NCBI GenBank assembly: GCA_927797885.1
Contig: OV696605.1
Coordinates: 2,579,157-2,643,156 of the forward strand
Length of the DNA stretch: 64,000 nucleotides
Direction: 5' to 3'
From: Gloeomargaritales cyanobacterium VI4D9
GTDB taxonomy: Bacteria; Cyanobacteriota; Cyanobacteriia; Gloeomargaritales; Gloeomargaritaceae
Notes under the pieces: model-generated
Databases searched by the model: none
Told to the model about the DNA's origin: nothing
The model's input: only the letters and a program-made list of their open reading frames with translations
Program-made: the position numbers and the translations under genes
Shown: piece by piece, positions 4,425 through 63,695 of the stretch
Position numbering within the stretch: position 1 is the first letter of the stretch
Layout of the letters: each line of letters begins with the position of its first letter

Positions 4425-4522
4425 TATAGCAATCCTATTTGATTAACGAACACAAATTTCCCAGAACCAAGGACGGGGGCGGTGCCCCGGTGACCCCTTT
4501 TTCTAAATTGAATTAGGATTTT
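4425..4522. repeat. family A inverted-repeat element, copy A1
   Basis: Begins TATAGCAATCCTATTTGATT and contains the family core GACGGGGGCGGTGCCC followed by GTGACCCC. The right terminal repeat is degraded (AATTAGGATTTT). It is nearly identical over its left 70 bases to copy A7 at 27166. Confidence 0.75.
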
Positions 4523-8896: not shown

Positions 8897-9041
8897 GGGG
8901 GTATTTAATAGACAGTATTCTCCATCTTACCATCCATCCGTACCTGGGCTAAACCCAGCAGTCGAGCAACCTCCACCACTGGGATGGATTATCAAGAAAC
9001 CTGGGTCTAAAACCCCGCAGAATTATACGACGGCTTTGTGC

Positions 9042-9161
9042 TATAGCAATCCTAAATGAGAATGGAACAGGGGGTCGCAGGGGCACCGCCCCCGTAAAAG
9101 AAGCACCTGCGGTGTATGGTTCTGAAAAATTTTTGTTTGAAAATCAAGTGGGATTGCTATA
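9042..9161. repeat. family A inverted-repeat element, copy A2
   Basis: Runs from TATAGCAATCCTAAATGAG to GTGGGATTGCTATA with the core GGGGTCGCAGGGGCACCG. It is a long form: an extra GAAGCACCTGCGGTGTATGG lies between core and right arm, which is also found in A6 on the other strand. Confidence 0.85.
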
Positions 9162-23194: not shown

Positions 23195-23295
23195 TATAGC
23201 AATCCTAAATGAGAATGGAACAGGGGTCGCAGGGGCACCGCCCCCGCATTTGGTTCTGAAAAATTTTTGTTTGAAAATCAAGTAGGATTGCTATA
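23195..23295. repeat. family A inverted-repeat element, copy A5 (reference copy)
   Basis: A 101-base element with terminal repeats TATAGCAATCCT and AGGATTGCTATA that match perfectly. The interior holds GGGGTCGCAGGGGCACCG, TTGGTTCTGAAAAATTTTTG and no coding capacity. This is the cleanest short form. Confidence 0.9.
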
Positions 23296-27150: not shown

Positions 27151-27165
27151 TGAGTAAAAATTTTA

Positions 27166-27266
27166 TATAGCAATCCTATTTGATTAACGAACACAAATTT
27201 CCCAGAACCAGGGACGGGGGCGGTGCCCCTGCGACCCCTGTTCCATTCTTATTTAGGATTGCTATA
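27166..27266. repeat. family A inverted-repeat element, copy A7
   Basis: A 101-base copy from TATAGCAATCCTATTTGATT to ATTTAGGATTGCTATA, in the opposite orientation to A5. A degraded core (AGGGTCGCAGGGCGTAGTCC) follows at about 27280. Confidence 0.9.
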
Positions 27267-45546: not shown

Positions 45547-45578
45547 TTAGTAAGTGTTGCATATCCGTAAAAAACTTA

Positions 45579-45673
45579 TATAGCAATCCTAAATGAGAAT
45601 GGAACAGGGGTCGCAGGGGCACCGCCCCCGTGCTTGGTTCCGGGAAATTTTTGTTGGTTAATCAAATTGCTAT
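45579..45673. repeat. family A element, copy A8, abutting a transposase start
   Basis: Starts TATAGCAATCCTAAATGAG and keeps the full core, then ends TTAATCAAATTGCTAT, a shortened right arm. The ATG of the transposase remnant overlaps its last bases. Confidence 0.8.
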
Positions 45674-57120: not shown

Positions 57121-57192
<72 letters not shown>

Positions 57193-57246
57193 TACCCAAT
57201 AAGAAGCTAGATTCCCGGTATTTACGGTACTTACAGGATTCACCCC

Positions 57247-57338: not shown

Positions 57339-58442
57339 ATGGGCAAATCACCCAAGGGAACCGTTAGCCTGGTCAATTCTAATGGGCGGCTACAGGCAAG
57401 GTTCCGGTGGCAAGGGAAGCGGTATTACTTGAGCCTGGGTGTAACGGATACACCCAAGAATCGGAAGCTGGTGGCGGGGCGGGTGGCGCAGATACAGCGT
57501 GACCTGGACTATGGGGAATTTACCGGCGACTTATCCAAGTACCAACCCCAGGCGGTGGGTGTAGCGGTTACACCCAAGATACCTAGCTTGATGGAATTGT
57601 GGACAAGGTTTGTGGACTACAAGCGACCCCAGTTAGCGGTGTCCACCATCCACAAAATTTATGGGCGGTATGGTGAGTTGTTGCGCCGGTGCCCTTACCA
57701 AGAGTTAGAGAAGTCCACAGAGATTAGGGAATGGGCGCTGAATACGCAACCACCAATTACCGCCAAGCGACTTCTACAGCACCTGGGGGCTTGCTGTAAA
57801 TGGGCGGTTCAGTCGAAGCTAATCCCATCCAACCCATTTCAGGGAATGGCGGCTAATATCACCATCCCCAAATCTGAACGGGGCGGGGATGAAATTGACC
57901 CGTTTTCCCCAGATGAACGGGCGGCTATTATCGCCGGGTTTGAGTCATCCCAGTATTACCGACCCTATGCCCCGTTAGTACGGTTTTTATTTTTGACGGG
58001 GTGCAGACCGGGGGAAGCACTGGGCTTGGAGTGGGGACACATTACGGATGAGTTTATCCATTTCCAACAGACTTCAGTCAATGGACTCCGGGGCGAATTG
58101 AAGCAGGGACTCAAAACCCAAAGTAGTCGTAAATTCCCGATTAACCGGCAACTACAGGAACTTTTAGACAATATCCCCAGGGTGAATAAGCTAGTCTTTC
58201 CTAGTCCTACGGGGCGCATTATTGACTGGACAAATTTTAGGGCTAGGGCCTGGGTAACGGTTCTCAAGTCTGTGGGGGTGCGCTACCGCAAGGTTTATCA
58301 AGCCCGGCATACCTTCATCACGGAAGCCCTGCGCCGGGGGTTATCGGTACAGGATGTGGCAAAGCTAGTTGGCAACAGTCCCCAGGTGATTTATGCCCAT
58401 TACGCCGGGGCAAGTCGGGAACTGGTGGTGCCGGAACTATGA
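57339..58442 (+). CDS. int: tyrosine recombinase/integrase
   Basis: The 367-residue integrase has an N-terminal DNA-binding part (SLVNSNGRLQARFRWQGKRY), a SAM-like core-binding domain (MELWTRFVDYKRPQLAVSTI), and the catalytic domain with the first Arg in FLTGCRPGEALGLEW. The box II segment reads YQARHTFITEAL, where Tyr stands at the usual first His as in many phage integrases. The nucleophilic Tyr is in VIYAHYAGA. ATG at 57339 follows AAGGA. It starts 146 bases from the tRNA-Gly end and overlaps the next gene by 4 bases. Confidence 0.92.
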   Translation: MGKSPKGTVSLVNSNGRLQARFRWQGKRYYLSLGVTDTPKNRKLVAGRVAQIQRDLDYGEFTGDLSKYQPQAVGVAVTPKIPSLMELWTRFVDYKRPQLAVSTIHKIYGRYGELLRRCPYQELEKSTEIREWALNTQPPITAKRLLQHLGACCKWAVQSKLIPSNPFQGMAANITIPKSERGGDEIDPFSPDERAAIIAGFESSQYYRPYAPLVRFLFLTGCRPGEALGLEWGHITDEFIHFQQTSVNGLRGELKQGLKTQSSRKFPINRQLQELLDNIPRVNKLVFPSPTGRIIDWTNFRARAWVTVLKSVGVRYRKVYQARHTFITEALRRGLSVQDVAKLVGNSPQVIYAHYAGASRELVVPEL

Positions 58443-59236
58443 CTAATCCCAAGTGGCGGCGCAAATTGAGGGAACTGGTGGGGGCGGAACTTGCCCCATT
58501 CATCCCCCATTGGGTCGAGCTAGAACCGCCGGATGTACCCCAGGATTTTTTAATTGAATTGGAATTTTACGATTGGTGGCAAGCGGTCAAAACCCATGCC
58601 AGCCGGGGGGAACTTCACCCCAGCATCCACAACCATCCCCGAAGTGCAGTTATTGGCAAAGACGGCAATTATCAATCTGTTGACCTGACTGGCACAGGAC
58701 TACCCCGCAAATTTGAACGATTCTACACCAAAGGATTAAATTACCCCCAAACTACCCCCCAGGTGCAGTGGCCTATGACCTTAAGGTGGGCTTGGGTAAG
58801 CGTCACCCTGAGAGATGACGGGGTGAGTATGCCCAATGATGACTACAACCCAGGGGAATCCTTGTGTACGTTGATCCAGGATACCCCCCAGCAGTTCATT
58901 CATAGCCTAAACTTTTGGCATGGGCATTACCAAATTTATTTGAAATTGACCTCCATAGAACGGCGGTTCCTGAGTGCCATTAGGGGAACGTATTCTTGCA
59001 GTCACTCAACTGGAACGCAACATCAATGGTACGGTTCCTACAAAAATTTGCGATGGGAACCCGAGCGTTATTTCCCTGGTGTTGACCCCACAAACTACGG
59101 GCGGCACCTAAAAAGACTGCAAACCCTGGGACTAATCCAAATCCACCGGCTGGGAAATGGAAACATTACGAGTTTTAGCTTTGACATCGCTACAACCGGC
59201 GCAGTGATACACGTTTGCAAAAAACTTTGTAAATAA
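58439..59236 (+). CDS. hypothetical protein of the integrated element, possibly replication-related
   Basis: A 265-residue protein I cannot assign. It has a Trp-rich middle (NFWHGHYQIYLKL, GTQHQWYGSYKNLRWEPERY) and a C-terminal region YGRHLKRLQTLGLIQIHRLG with the look of a winged-helix DNA-binding motif. Three iterons lie directly downstream, the placing often seen with plasmid or phage initiators and regulators, so an initiator or repressor role is possible. ATG overlaps the integrase stop (ATGA). No catalytic motif is obvious. Confidence 0.6.
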   Translation: MTNPKWRRKLRELVGAELAPFIPHWVELEPPDVPQDFLIELEFYDWWQAVKTHASRGELHPSIHNHPRSAVIGKDGNYQSVDLTGTGLPRKFERFYTKGLNYPQTTPQVQWPMTLRWAWVSVTLRDDGVSMPNDDYNPGESLCTLIQDTPQQFIHSLNFWHGHYQIYLKLTSIERRFLSAIRGTYSCSHSTGTQHQWYGSYKNLRWEPERYFPGVDPTNYGRHLKRLQTLGLIQIHRLGNGNITSFSFDIATTGAVIHVCKKLCK

Positions 59237-59427
59237 TTGTTAAAACATACTGCTTTTATTATTACACAAATTTTGACGGGGTAAACCCTAGAATCGGTAT
59301 GTTATTACAGAAAATTTGACGGGGTAAATGGGCATATCCCCATTCAATCCCCCTGATTTTGACGGGGTAAACCCTAAATTGAGAGCCTGTAACCTTTGCT
59401 ACGTTGGACTTGTAGAGTTTTTGAGAG
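59237..59427. other. intergenic iteron and control region
   Basis: About 190 bases with an AT-rich head (TTAAAACATACTGCTTTTAT) followed by three iterons and then the leader of the excisionase-like gene. It is a candidate replication origin or operator. Confidence 0.5.
59271..59375. repeat. three iterons with exact 43-bp period
   Basis: The shared core is TTTGACGGGGTAAA; two copies extend to TTTTGACGGGGTAAACCCTA. The GAC of the core starts at 59275, 59318 and 59361, so the spacing is 43 and 43. The sequence between copies is not conserved. Such phasing (about four helical turns) places a bound protein on one face of the DNA. Confidence 0.8.
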
Positions 59428-59715
59428 ATGTTTATGACGACATTTCACCCGGTCAAAAGGTGCGCCGAGCAGTTAGGAGTCCACTGGGCATGGCTCAGGG
59501 ACAGGCGGCTACGAGGTCAATTCATCGAGGGTGTCCATTACCGCAAGGTTCCGGGGATTCGGGGGTACTGCTACAATACTGAACTTTGCGGCCACTGGAT
59601 TGATTGCGGGGGCGATCCGATTCTCCACCAGGCGGCGATTGATCAGTTTTTGGCATCCCAGCGAATGACACGGATTTTGCAACAAGTCAAGCGGGGGGGC
59701 ACCAGCAATGGCTGA
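59428..59715 (+). CDS. excisionase-like small DNA-binding protein
   Basis: A 95-residue basic protein with VKRCAEQLGVHWAWLRDRRL at residues 9-28, a helix-turn-helix like those of MerR/Xis-type proteins, then RGQFIEGVHYRKVPGIRGYC with the winged turn seen in excisionases. It ends in a basic tail. It follows the iterons, so it could bind them or act with the integrase. ATG at 59428 follows GAGAG. It overlaps the next gene by 8 bases. Confidence 0.65.
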   Translation: MFMTTFHPVKRCAEQLGVHWAWLRDRRLRGQFIEGVHYRKVPGIRGYCYNTELCGHWIDCGGDPILHQAAIDQFLASQRMTRILQQVKRGGTSNG

Positions 59716-60442
59716 GCAATTTCACCGGCTGACCCTGGGCGAACTGAAACGACTTTACCAGTCCGGCGGTTTGACCAGCGTGGCATATTTGAGACTCATT
59801 CTGCAGACCAAAATGCGCGCCGGCTGGAAGCTGACCATTGAGAGTGTTGACCAGTTCTGCGGCGAATGGGGTCTCAGCAAATCAACTTTCTACAGAGCTA
59901 GGCGAAAACTCCAGTTAGAAGGATTCCTGTCAGTACAACATACACGGCTAACCTTGACTTGTAACACAAATTCTCACCAGTGGCACTCAAGTCTCACCAA
60001 TGAGAATCCAATTCTCACCGGTGACACTCAGGATGTCACTGATGAGAATCAGACAAGCCTCAAACCCCGTGCTGGTGCGGGTTCTGGCGTTCTACTAGAT
60101 GTTTATCAGATGTCTAATAGATGTTTACTAGAGGGAACAGCCGATTTTGTTAGTACAAACCAAGCCGATCCAAGTTATCTCAGATTTCTGGGTTACAAAC
60201 GAAGGAACCCCTGGAAGCGAGTTACCGGCGAGGCGATTGAGCGAGAACTTGAGACTAACCCCGATCCCAGGATCAAGTTCGGTTGGCTCAAGACAGCCCC
60301 AAGTGTGTTGTCCCCCTGGTGGTCAGTTGAGTTTAATCCTTTAGCGGAATCCCCCCCAGGCGACCCAACAAGCCAGGGTTCCGGTCCGCACTTAGGGAAT
60401 GAGCTTGAACAGTCCCCGATGGGTGTTGGAGGCAATTTATGA
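59708..60442 (+). CDS. replication-like protein with helix-turn-helix
   Basis: A 244-residue protein. The N-terminal region carries a winged-helix-like segment (VDQFCGEWGLSKSTFYRARR, then KLQLEGFLSVQHTRL) as in phage replication and initiator proteins that resemble DnaD or O proteins. The middle is low complexity and encodes a 41-bp DNA repeat. No ATPase or nuclease motif is visible. The C-terminus (SPPGDPTSQGSGPHLGNELE) is disordered. I infer an accessory replication or regulatory role, not certain. Its stop overlaps the next start (ATGA). Confidence 0.6.
   Translation: MAEQFHRLTLGELKRLYQSGGLTSVAYLRLILQTKMRAGWKLTIESVDQFCGEWGLSKSTFYRARRKLQLEGFLSVQHTRLTLTCNTNSHQWHSSLTNENPILTGDTQDVTDENQTSLKPRAGAGSGVLLDVYQMSNRCLLEGTADFVSTNQADPSYLRFLGYKRRNPWKRVTGEAIERELETNPDPRIKFGWLKTAPSVLSPWWSVEFNPLAESPPGDPTSQGSGPHLGNELEQSPMGVGGNL
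59970..60051. repeat. 41-bp imperfect tandem repeat with inverted ends, inside a coding region
   Basis: ATTCTCACCAGTGGCACTCA begins at 59970 and ATTCTCACCGGTGACACTCA at 60011. Each unit ends with TGAGAAT, so each can form a hairpin with ATTCTCA. The period is not a multiple of three, so the protein copies are not repeats. Confidence 0.75.
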
Positions 60443-60705
60443 CCCCCGCAGTATCCCTAAGTAATGGGAAAGTTCACGTCACCTTACCGCCGCCGCCCCA
60501 GCAGATTGGGGAAATTTCGTACTCGTGTTGGCTGTGCAAAGACTCCGGGGTAGTTGCGACCGTTGACCAATTCGGGAACCCCTGGGGATGGCGGTGCCGG
60601 TGCCCTGCTGGAACCAAGGCCGCCGGTGCCCCCCAAGTGAGCCGTAGCGATTACATCACATTGTACACCCAGGCGTGGCCTGATTTTGCCGTACCACCGT
60701 ATTAG
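60439..60705 (+). CDS. small cysteine-rich hypothetical protein
   Basis: An 88-residue protein with ISYSCWLCKDSGVVATVD and then WRCRCPAG, a CxxC...CxC set that could bind one zinc ion. The region between resembles short phage zinc-finger proteins. The ATG overlaps the preceding stop. Function unknown. Confidence 0.6.
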   Translation: MTPAVSLSNGKVHVTLPPPPQQIGEISYSCWLCKDSGVVATVDQFGNPWGWRCRCPAGTKAAGAPQVSRSDYITLYTQAWPDFAVPPY

Positions 60706-60707
60706 CC

Positions 60708-60959
60708 ATGAACCATAAACCCGTTGCCCCGCATTACACCCAAGGTTCCATCGAGTGCATTACAGCCATTAAAAGTGCCTTGACCCTGGAGGAATTTAGG
60801 GGCTACTGCAAGGGAAATATCCTTAAATACGTGTGGCGGGAACGGCATAAAGGGCAACTGGAATCCTTGTTAAAAGCCCGTGATTATTTGAATTGGCTAA
60901 TAGAAACCTACCAGTTAGAATCAAAGTGTAATCCGCCCCCAAACCCCCATGAAAAATGA
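60708..60959 (+). CDS. DUF3310 family phage protein
   Basis: An 83-residue protein matching the DUF3310 family, known from many phages: HYTQGSIECITAIKSALTLE, FRGYCKGNILKYVWRERHKG and LLKARDYLNWLIETY. The family role is not established, though it often neighbours nucleotide metabolism or replication genes. ATG at 60708, two bases after the preceding stop. This is one of the best phage markers in the element. Confidence 0.85.
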   Translation: MNHKPVAPHYTQGSIECITAIKSALTLEEFRGYCKGNILKYVWRERHKGQLESLLKARDYLNWLIETYQLESKCNPPPNPHEK

Positions 60960-61107
60960 AGCCCCGCCCATTCAACAAATAACCCAATTAATCCCACTCA
61001 CTCGACTTGAATTTCAGCAAAAAATCTTAAGGCAAATTCGTGATGAGTTAGCCAAACAGGATGCGCTAAGCGCGTTTCAATCTGAGTACCCAGATGATCA
61101 CTTTTGA
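60949..61107 (+). CDS. small hypothetical protein between DUF3310 and RusA
   Basis: A 52-residue protein starting MKNEAPPIQQITQLIPLTRL, with a helical middle LEFQQKILRQIRDELAKQD and an acidic end. It overlaps DUF3310 by 11 bases and RusA by 14 bases, a spacing common in phage operons. No family recognised. Confidence 0.5.
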   Translation: MKNEAPPIQQITQLIPLTRLEFQQKILRQIRDELAKQDALSAFQSEYPDDHF

Positions 61108-61456
61108 TGTGCCCTACCCAGCCTGTCCGAAGCCCCGCCCCCGGTTTGTGCGGAACGGATGGGCGCATTTACCACCTAAGTATGTTCACTGGAAGCGAGA
61201 ATCAGCACCGCTACTGGTGGCACAGGCGAAAGCGCAGAATCTACAAATCCCCATCAGCGATCCTCATTCAGTGGAAATACTGCTAATCTCACCCAGTTGT
61301 CGGGGCGACATTGATAACTGGTGTGGCTCAGTTTTTGATGTGTTGGTGCAAGCAGGAATTTTAGTTGACGACAATCTCAAGGTCTTGCCGGAACTGACTG
61401 CCCGATGGAAACGGGGAGTCCCATCCTGCACCGTGACCCTGACCCCCATCGGTTAA
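61094..61456 (+). CDS. rusA: RusA-family Holliday junction resolvase
   Basis: The 120-residue protein has the RusA catalytic core: ITFDVPYPACPKPRPRF at the N-terminus and RGDIDNWCGSVFDVLVQAGI followed by LVDDN, giving the acidic residues that bind magnesium. RusA cuts Holliday junctions during phage replication or recombination, here with the Rad52-like annealing protein. ATG at 61094 overlaps the previous gene. Length is usual. Confidence 0.88.
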   Translation: MITFDVPYPACPKPRPRFVRNGWAHLPPKYVHWKRESAPLLVAQAKAQNLQIPISDPHSVEILLISPSCRGDIDNWCGSVFDVLVQAGILVDDNLKVLPELTARWKRGVPSCTVTLTPIG

Positions 61457-63226: not shown

Positions 63227-63643
63227 TCAGCGTTGGTACAGGTACAGCCCCAAGCCAAACCGGGCGCAACACCGGCGGAAGCACTGAGATTCAGCATTAG
63301 CCGCCGTTTCCCCATAACCAGAAGTATTCACCTTCTCACTGCCAGTTGATTCCCTGGTAATGGTGCCGTCACTGGTCGGGATTGATAACGAACCGGTCAT
63401 GACCAATTCATCCCCAATTTGCTGGACATTGGTAATCCGAAATTGCCAGCCGGGGGCGTATCTATCCAACACCAAACAAGCCCGATGCCAGGGGATATAG
63501 GTGATAGTCCTACCGCCTAACTTTTTGGTTTCTAAAACACTACTGGGGAGTGGTTTAGATAGGGCTTCAATCACTTGGGATAAACTCCATTCCCCCGGGG
63601 CGGTGGGGGCATTTACAGACGGTTTAACGGTGGTGTACGTCAT
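63227..63643 (-). CDS. Rad52-like single-strand annealing protein
   Basis: A 138-residue protein of the Rad52/Sak type used by phages for recombination. Landmarks: RTITYIPWHRACLVLDRYAP, then GWQFRITNVQQIGDELVMTG, SIPTSDGTITRESTG and the C-terminal AANAESQCFRRCCARFGLGL, where the family usually has YxxxxNAESxAFRRAAAxFGLG. It pairs with the RusA resolvase in the same element. ATG at 63643 with GGAG upstream is preferred to 63658. It likely acts on single-stranded DNA ends in the cytosol. Confidence 0.82.
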   Translation of the reverse strand: MTYTTVKPSVNAPTAPGEWSLSQVIEALSKPLPSSVLETKKLGGRTITYIPWHRACLVLDRYAPGWQFRITNVQQIGDELVMTGSLSIPTSDGTITRESTGSEKVNTSGYGETAANAESQCFRRCCARFGLGLYLYQR

Positions 63644-63695
63644 GGTTTTAGACTCCATTGTGCAGGGTTTAACGTTGTATGGACAATGCAGACAA

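Follow-up and report, generated by a model that had tools for sequence, protein, structure and literature searches.

The layout in which an origin of replication lies within the gene for its own initiator has already been described for phage lambda and for certain plasmids of staphylococci, and is proposed here for an apparently uncharacterised protein family of cyanobacteria. In available passages of published accounts, ori-lambda occupies the middle of gene O and combines four iterons, each an inverted repeat, with an AT-rich tract (PMC7466680); the origin of plasmid pSK41 consists of four Rep boxes located centrally within rep, where the central linker that they encode is dispensable (PMC5703833). 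The available part of PMC7145576 describes RepA_N iterons as semi-palindromic and RepA_N proteins as coming mainly from Firmicutes; that of PMC5703833 describes the pPR9 initiator of staphylococci as a phage-like HTH N-terminus (pfam13730) fused to another C-terminus. Knowledge of cyanobacterial plasmid replication proteins is limited according to the available text of PMC10899382, in which CyRepX resembles helicase domains, CyRepA holds DEXDc domains, and the words 'iteron' and 'pAQ5' do not occur. A search of open-licence papers returned, among the matches listed, no account of cyanobacterial iteron origins located inside a gene.

The window, the whole 64-kb stretch of Gloeomargaritales cyanobacterium VI4D9 DNA that was analysed, contains most of an integrated element of about 8.2 kb that encodes a predicted replication initiator (P0001) with a tandem repeat array inside its gene (Table 1). 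This array is very probably the initiator-binding part of a theta origin that lies within the coding sequence of its own initiator, a reading based on the plasmid distribution of the family, its dnaB neighbours and the composite-origin anatomy of the gene. In its mode of action the initiator is best likened to lambda O and RepA_N, but by sequence it is placed with neither.

Table 1. Coordinates of features of the integrated element, on the scale of the window
Feature	Position	Strand	Evidence
tRNA-Gly	57121..57192
Left attachment repeat (51 bp), covering the 3' part of tRNA-Gly and adjoining flank	57147..57197	+	17-mer scan, blastn
Tyrosine integrase	57339..58442	+	Pfam Phage_integrase 1.5e-8, Arm-DNA-bind_2 2.1e-10; PHROG integrase 2.7e-44
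Small ORF, excisionase-like only weakly	59428..59715	+	PHROG 539 excisionase, E 0.032
Predicted replication initiator, 244 aa	59708..60442	+	AF2 model, weak PHROG matches, family
Iteron 1, TCTCACCAGTGGCA, imperfect palindrome	59972..59985	+	half-site fit
Iteron 2, TCTCACCAATGAGA	59992..60005	+	half-site fit
Iteron 3, TCTCACCGGTGACA, best palindrome, 6/7 pairs	60013..60026	+	half-site fit
Iteron 4, TGTCACTGATGAGA	60034..60047	+	half-site fit
Candidate DNA unwinding element: AT-rich repeats of 11 bp, TACTAGATGTT x 3.6	60093..60132	+	TRF score 52
Partner gene encoding a CxxC-D-[ST]-G motif	60439..60705	+	alignment A6 with 6 plasmid genes
DUF3310 protein	60708..60959	+	Pfam 4.5e-17
RusA-type Holliday junction resolvase	61094..61456	+	Pfam RusA 7e-9
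Sak-like single-strand annealing protein	63227..63658	-	Pfam SSAP_Sak 7.4e-4, 19.5 bits, below the cut-off of 22.3
Right attachment repeat, outside the window (L010:8513-8563)	65356..65406		blastn 100% over 51 bp

The predicted initiator and its described counterparts

P0001 is predicted to consist of a winged helix-turn-helix (wHTH) at about residues 5-88, a disordered linker, and a C-terminal part that is poorly modelled and variable in the family; in the AlphaFold2 model, residue blocks 11-70 mostly have pLDDT above 90, and residues 90-178 are below 50. In RepA_N initiators the C-terminal domain recruits DnaG primase. The protein reaches no Pfam or NCBIfam cut-off, and a sequence-based PDB search gave nothing convincing.

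Like the RepA_N initiators of the pSK41 type (PF06970), P0001 has an N-terminal wHTH, and its gene, like rep, has four repeats located centrally, where in pSK41 the linker is encoded by the origin, a likeness that here extends to position and repeats only (PMC5703833, available part). Unlike RepA_N, it belongs to a cyanobacterial host, the C-terminal part of its family is dissimilar, and the family has conserved AT-rich repeats behind the array. PF06970 gave no match for P0001, L004, L005 or L006, and is absent among the matches listed (the best 25 of 34 families) for 23 N-termini at E values up to 1. Like lambda O, the gene combines a mid-gene array of dyad iterons with an AT-rich tract that follows it, the match to the available description being one of anatomy only (PMC7466680). 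Unlike lambda O, its weak PHROG matches go to other families, namely a replication initiation protein (E 0.003) and a DnaD-like helicase loader (E 0.0072), and the gene that follows encodes a CxxC protein in the window and DnaB itself, not a loader, in two plasmid relatives. Phage_rep_O matched neither P0001 nor, among the matches listed, any of 23 family members at the thresholds used. Since the families listed include no match to PF06970 or Phage_rep_O, the window initiator is kept apart from both as a variant.

A likeness to the pPR9-type initiator consists in matches of HTH_36, which is PF13730, to 9 of 23 family members (best E 0.0054); all of these are weak, and matches of other generic HTH models are equally frequent. 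With CyRepA1, CyRepX1 and CyRepX2 the family has in common that these are replication proteins, here predicted ones, of cyanobacterial plasmids; unlike them, P0001 is without a helicase or DEXDc domain.

The wHTH is confidently predicted (AlphaFold2); in the comparison with the DnaD-like fold of the N-terminal domain in RepA_N, its structural matches are generic (Z 8.0 or less), the best being transcription factors; the fold search also lists, at Z 7.1, 4pql, which we take to be a RepA domain. The RepA_N structures 4PTA and 4PT7, named in the available part of PMC7145576, are absent among the fold-search matches listed. Such a generic fold, closest to transcription factors, would also suit an operator array, at which the wHTH protein, or another regulator, would bind the iterons, the wHTH protein only to control its own expression, with replication starting elsewhere, and intragenic binding sites could also serve as a roadblock. 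This alternative is improbable: the array lies about 260 bp inside the gene, just behind the wHTH-coding part and away from the gene start; the region yields few promoter-like matches (3, against a shuffle mean of 1.2, s.d. 1.0); and the conserved AT-rich repeats and dnaB neighbours would be left unaccounted for.

Anatomy of the array and of the AT-rich repeats

The original prediction recognized two 41-bp tandem units within a coding region (59970-60010 and 60011-60051). Both the location, in the initiator ORF, and the repeat hold: TRF reports period 41, 2.0 copies, 82% matches and a score of 115, the highest of 38 TRF rows in the window. The units are identical at 23 of 41 ungapped positions and agree at 18 of the first 20 bases, where 17 had been counted, and ATTCTCA at 59970-59976 and 60011-60017 pairs, as predicted, with TGAGAAT at 60001-60007 and 60043-60049. 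The unit proposed was too long, however: the true repeat unit is a 14-bp imperfect palindrome that occurs four times, each occurrence representing half of an earlier 41-bp unit, and TRF also gives periods of 20 and 21 across the same bases. The four iterons follow one another at steps of 20, 21 and 21 bp, and their eight half-sites fit the consensus TSTCAYY at 55 of 56 positions. The array holds seven of the 45 exact TSTCAYY half-sites found on both strands of the window, and nowhere else in the window do four half-sites of this kind cluster within 100 bp.

The array comprises the codons of residues 88-115, at the start of the predicted disordered linker. Self-match at lags of 20 to 22 behind the wHTH is 28/42, a value equalled in none of 300 synonymous-codon shuffles (maximum 26), which keep protein and codon usage, and in none of 300 codon shuffles. 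The transcribed array could also fold, and it has been considered whether the 81 nucleotides form an mRNA hairpin, one long stem controlling translation or stability: the predicted fold has -38.2 kcal/mol (z -6.9), none of 200 shuffles is as stable, and 9 of 12 homologous arrays have z below -3. The remaining three (L068, L070 and L050) keep their iterons but have folds not clearly more stable than those of their shuffles (z from -0.17 to -1.43), the topology varies among members, as it should where palindromic DNA sites fold merely as a side effect, and there is no Rfam match, so that an RNA function is judged highly improbable.

Behind the array, at a distance of about 40 bp, begin the AT-rich 11-bp repeats, in the least stable part of the initiator gene; the weakest 50 bp of this stretch are 68% AT, compared with 49% for the whole gene, and its short-repeat score is equalled in none of 300 codon shuffles. 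An AT-rich part also characterises the family. In 14 of 23 family genes (2.2 expected), the 40-bp stretch of lowest stability starts no more than 90 bp downstream of the array, and many members have repeats of 10-13 bp there, such as CAGATCTTTCTCAGATCTTTCTC in L028 and CAGATATTTATTCAGATATTTATTC in L006. These repeats are reminiscent of the 13-mers in the oriC of E. coli.

By analogy with lambda and pSK41, dimers of the N-terminal wHTH would bind the four palindromic iterons, which are spaced about two helical turns (20-21 bp) apart; the bound initiator would wrap or bend the DNA and help to melt the 11-bp repeats some 40 bp downstream; the host replicative helicase, or in some relatives an element-encoded DnaB, would load at the melted repeats; and the excised 8.2-kb element would replicate by the theta mode.

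Selection on the array and its distribution in the family

Searching with the window initiator gave matches in 7 of 386 genomes of the phylum, its own genome included, and a profile built from five N-termini had matches in 50 of 388 genomes of the class, the weaker matches including short wHTH-only ORFs. In genome contigs a first search found no relative, and a second, with the A4 profile, found 15 loci, mostly of Leptolyngbya and its kin. The family relatives, which are distant from the window gene, are located on chromosomes and on cyanobacterial plasmids, circular ones included: L004 has an identical counterpart on a Nostoc plasmid of 58.7 kb, and its search returned 22 plasmid records, of which all the named ones are cyanobacterial. 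Among 50,697 phage records there was no match for P0001, L004 or L066, and one unannotated record was matched by the L031 fragment over 30% of the query. In viral contigs, the P0001 search yielded one confirmed stretch and no distinct locus, and the profile searches confirmed 0 of 15 stretches (A2) and 0 of 14 (A4).

Among the 38 distinct family ORFs of at least 140 residues, to which the count was restricted, 26 have, according to TRF, a tandem array in the corresponding position behind the wHTH, with a period of 21 bp in 20 of them and 20 bp in six. Arrays occur in 23 of 327 other ORFs of the same loci, a number that includes ORFs overlapping the arrays and weaker family members such as that of pAQ5. 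The 12 ORFs in which TRF finds no array include L025, L026 and L073, with degenerate repeats only, and tandem paralogues that adjoin an array-bearing copy at L047, L052 and L078. The short wHTH-only ORFs (L007, L036, L038, L040-L045) have no iteron array directly behind the wHTH. The paralogous initiators, of which one copy only has an array (L052:2477-3975, L078:1139-3147, L047:1899-3292), may be regulator/initiator pairs.

Iteron sequences vary widely from genome to genome, and similarity of array 6-mers tracks wHTH identity (Mantel r 0.65, p 2e-4, 16 members), a correlation for which shared descent accounts in part. The consensus units are dyads more frequently than their shuffled versions are (p 4e-7 when 31 genes are combined; p below 0.05 singly in 9 of 31).

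As the closest relatives found of the window gene are less than 45% identical to it, the comparison of synonymous sites in homologues suggested by the original prediction was made on pairs of distant relatives instead, and reduced change was indeed found. In L070/L068 and L069/L074 taken together, synonymous codon changes number 12/68 in the array and AT-rich part and 157/332 in the wHTH and the rest, with regions set by hand (p 2.6e-6). The array alone has 3/25 in one pair (p 4e-4) and 4/14 in L069/L074 (p 0.15), and L069/L073 gives 3/53 versus 38/221 (p 0.02); five pairs were counted, including L069/L071 and L071/L073, which are too close to be informative. In total base differences the array of L069/L074 is not lower than the wHTH (31/96 versus 82/285). 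Selection on the array at the level of DNA is thus supported by the dyads, the 20-bp-period arrays and the synonymous conservation in relatives. It had been argued from a period not divisible by three that selection is on the DNA and not on the protein; the conclusion stands, and the argument alone does not, because 20 of the 26 arrays have a 21-bp period.

That period, seven codons in most relatives, together with the predicted disorder of the linker, would also be expected of a protein-level or neutral repeat, a low-complexity linker grown by slippage. Very little probability attaches to this alternative: the four iterons of the window gene start in codon phases 0, 2, 2 and 2, which makes two phases, the period is 20 bp in 6 of 26 arrays, and dyad symmetry with reduced synonymous change requires selection on DNA.

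The integrated element and the plasmid relatives

The element is integrated at tRNA-Gly, is bounded by 51-bp repeats and carries recombination genes of phage type. A sister genome is 94% identical on the left flank, with homology stopping at 57200, and gene order on the right flank differs in sister genomes. The excisionase-like ORF overlaps the start of the initiator gene, and the initiator gene is absent from the other seven genomes of the order that were searched. The partner gene is 21-28% identical to six plasmid genes located behind initiators, with invariant C30, C33, D35, G37, C55 and W80, so that the CxxC-D-[ST]-G pattern is common to the window element and six plasmids. The original prediction offered replication or packaging as the function of the array; replication stands as a prediction on the grounds of plasmid distribution, dnaB neighbours and origin anatomy, and nothing pointed to packaging, capsid and terminase families matching none of the 14 element ORFs scanned. 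The 8.2-kb element itself may be a non-replicating remnant.

A functional link had also been suggested between the array and 43-bp repeats upstream (59271-59371), which are located between the ORF at 58439-59236 and the excisionase-like ORF and have the 15-bp core TTTTGACGGGGTAAA at 59271, 59314 (one mismatch) and 59357, at exact 43-bp steps. The link is not supported: the two sets of repeats have no common sequence, and the core is confined to the element apart from one genomic site within one mismatch, 1.26 Mb away. The 43-bp repeats are possible excisionase or regulator sites.

In a congener (L062, genome G003), 73% homology extends through the integrase to window position 58435 at the same tRNA-Gly, which may represent a related element at that site. 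A dispersed repeat of about 33-54 bp, found at window positions 4425-4477, 9041-9073, 23195-23228, 27165-27218 and 45575-45612 and at L010:8693-8743, also recurs in sister genomes.

On plasmids pTCL26-01_G and ATCC 29413 plasmid B, dnaB is directly downstream of the family gene; the gene of the latter plasmid, matched by L004 and below the profile threshold, contains intragenic arrays of 18 and 20 bp. No other initiator was seen in the PLSDB gene tables, themselves incomplete, of these two plasmids and pAQ5. In each of five whole plasmids the intragenic array is the best TRF row of period 16-44; the cumulative GC-skew minimum is within the initiator gene in one of the five, where it supports an origin at that place, and the maximum is near the gene in one other.

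TubR-type wHTH proteins bind iterons for segregation. The array could accordingly be compared to a centromere-like partition site, at which the wHTH protein would bind the iterons to segregate the element, and the plasmid relatives, with their wHTH and tandem iterons, are accompanied by parA genes. On those plasmids, however, parA is away from the family gene and dnaB adjoins it in two; an integrated element needs no partition, and the AT-rich part would be unaccounted for. Partition is therefore considered very unlikely, and an origin within the initiator gene remains the preferred reading.

Scytonema NIES-4073 plasmid4 carries two family initiators (L088:7733-9204 and L088:21783-23101); both contain an array within the gene and are accompanied by a CFCCQDTG partner gene. 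A small ORF of pTCL26-01_G (L014:4830-5156) is made up of nearly identical repeats, each some 25 residues long. On pAQ5, a hypothetical ORF of 171 bp (L086:4280-4450) is annotated in PLSDB as an 'ACT beta-lactamase' resistance gene, a call that, judged by the size of the ORF, is probably spurious.

A broader proposal, to which we give an even chance, is that these genes constitute widespread one-gene replicons of cyanobacteria, each a wHTH initiator whose linker-coding DNA would hold a complete origin of iterons and AT-rich 11/12-mers; the iteron sequence would change with the wHTH and so create compatibility groups within one gene, and the replicons would serve both circular plasmids, pAQ5 included, and small tRNA-integrated elements such as the present 8.2-kb one, with satellite-like excision and replication. 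If true, several plasmids, including pAQ5 of the laboratory strain PCC 7002, would gain an origin and an initiator that can be put to the test, and vectors a compact self-contained replicon; the family would also offer a natural series of single genes whose DNA-binding domain and binding sites vary in concert.
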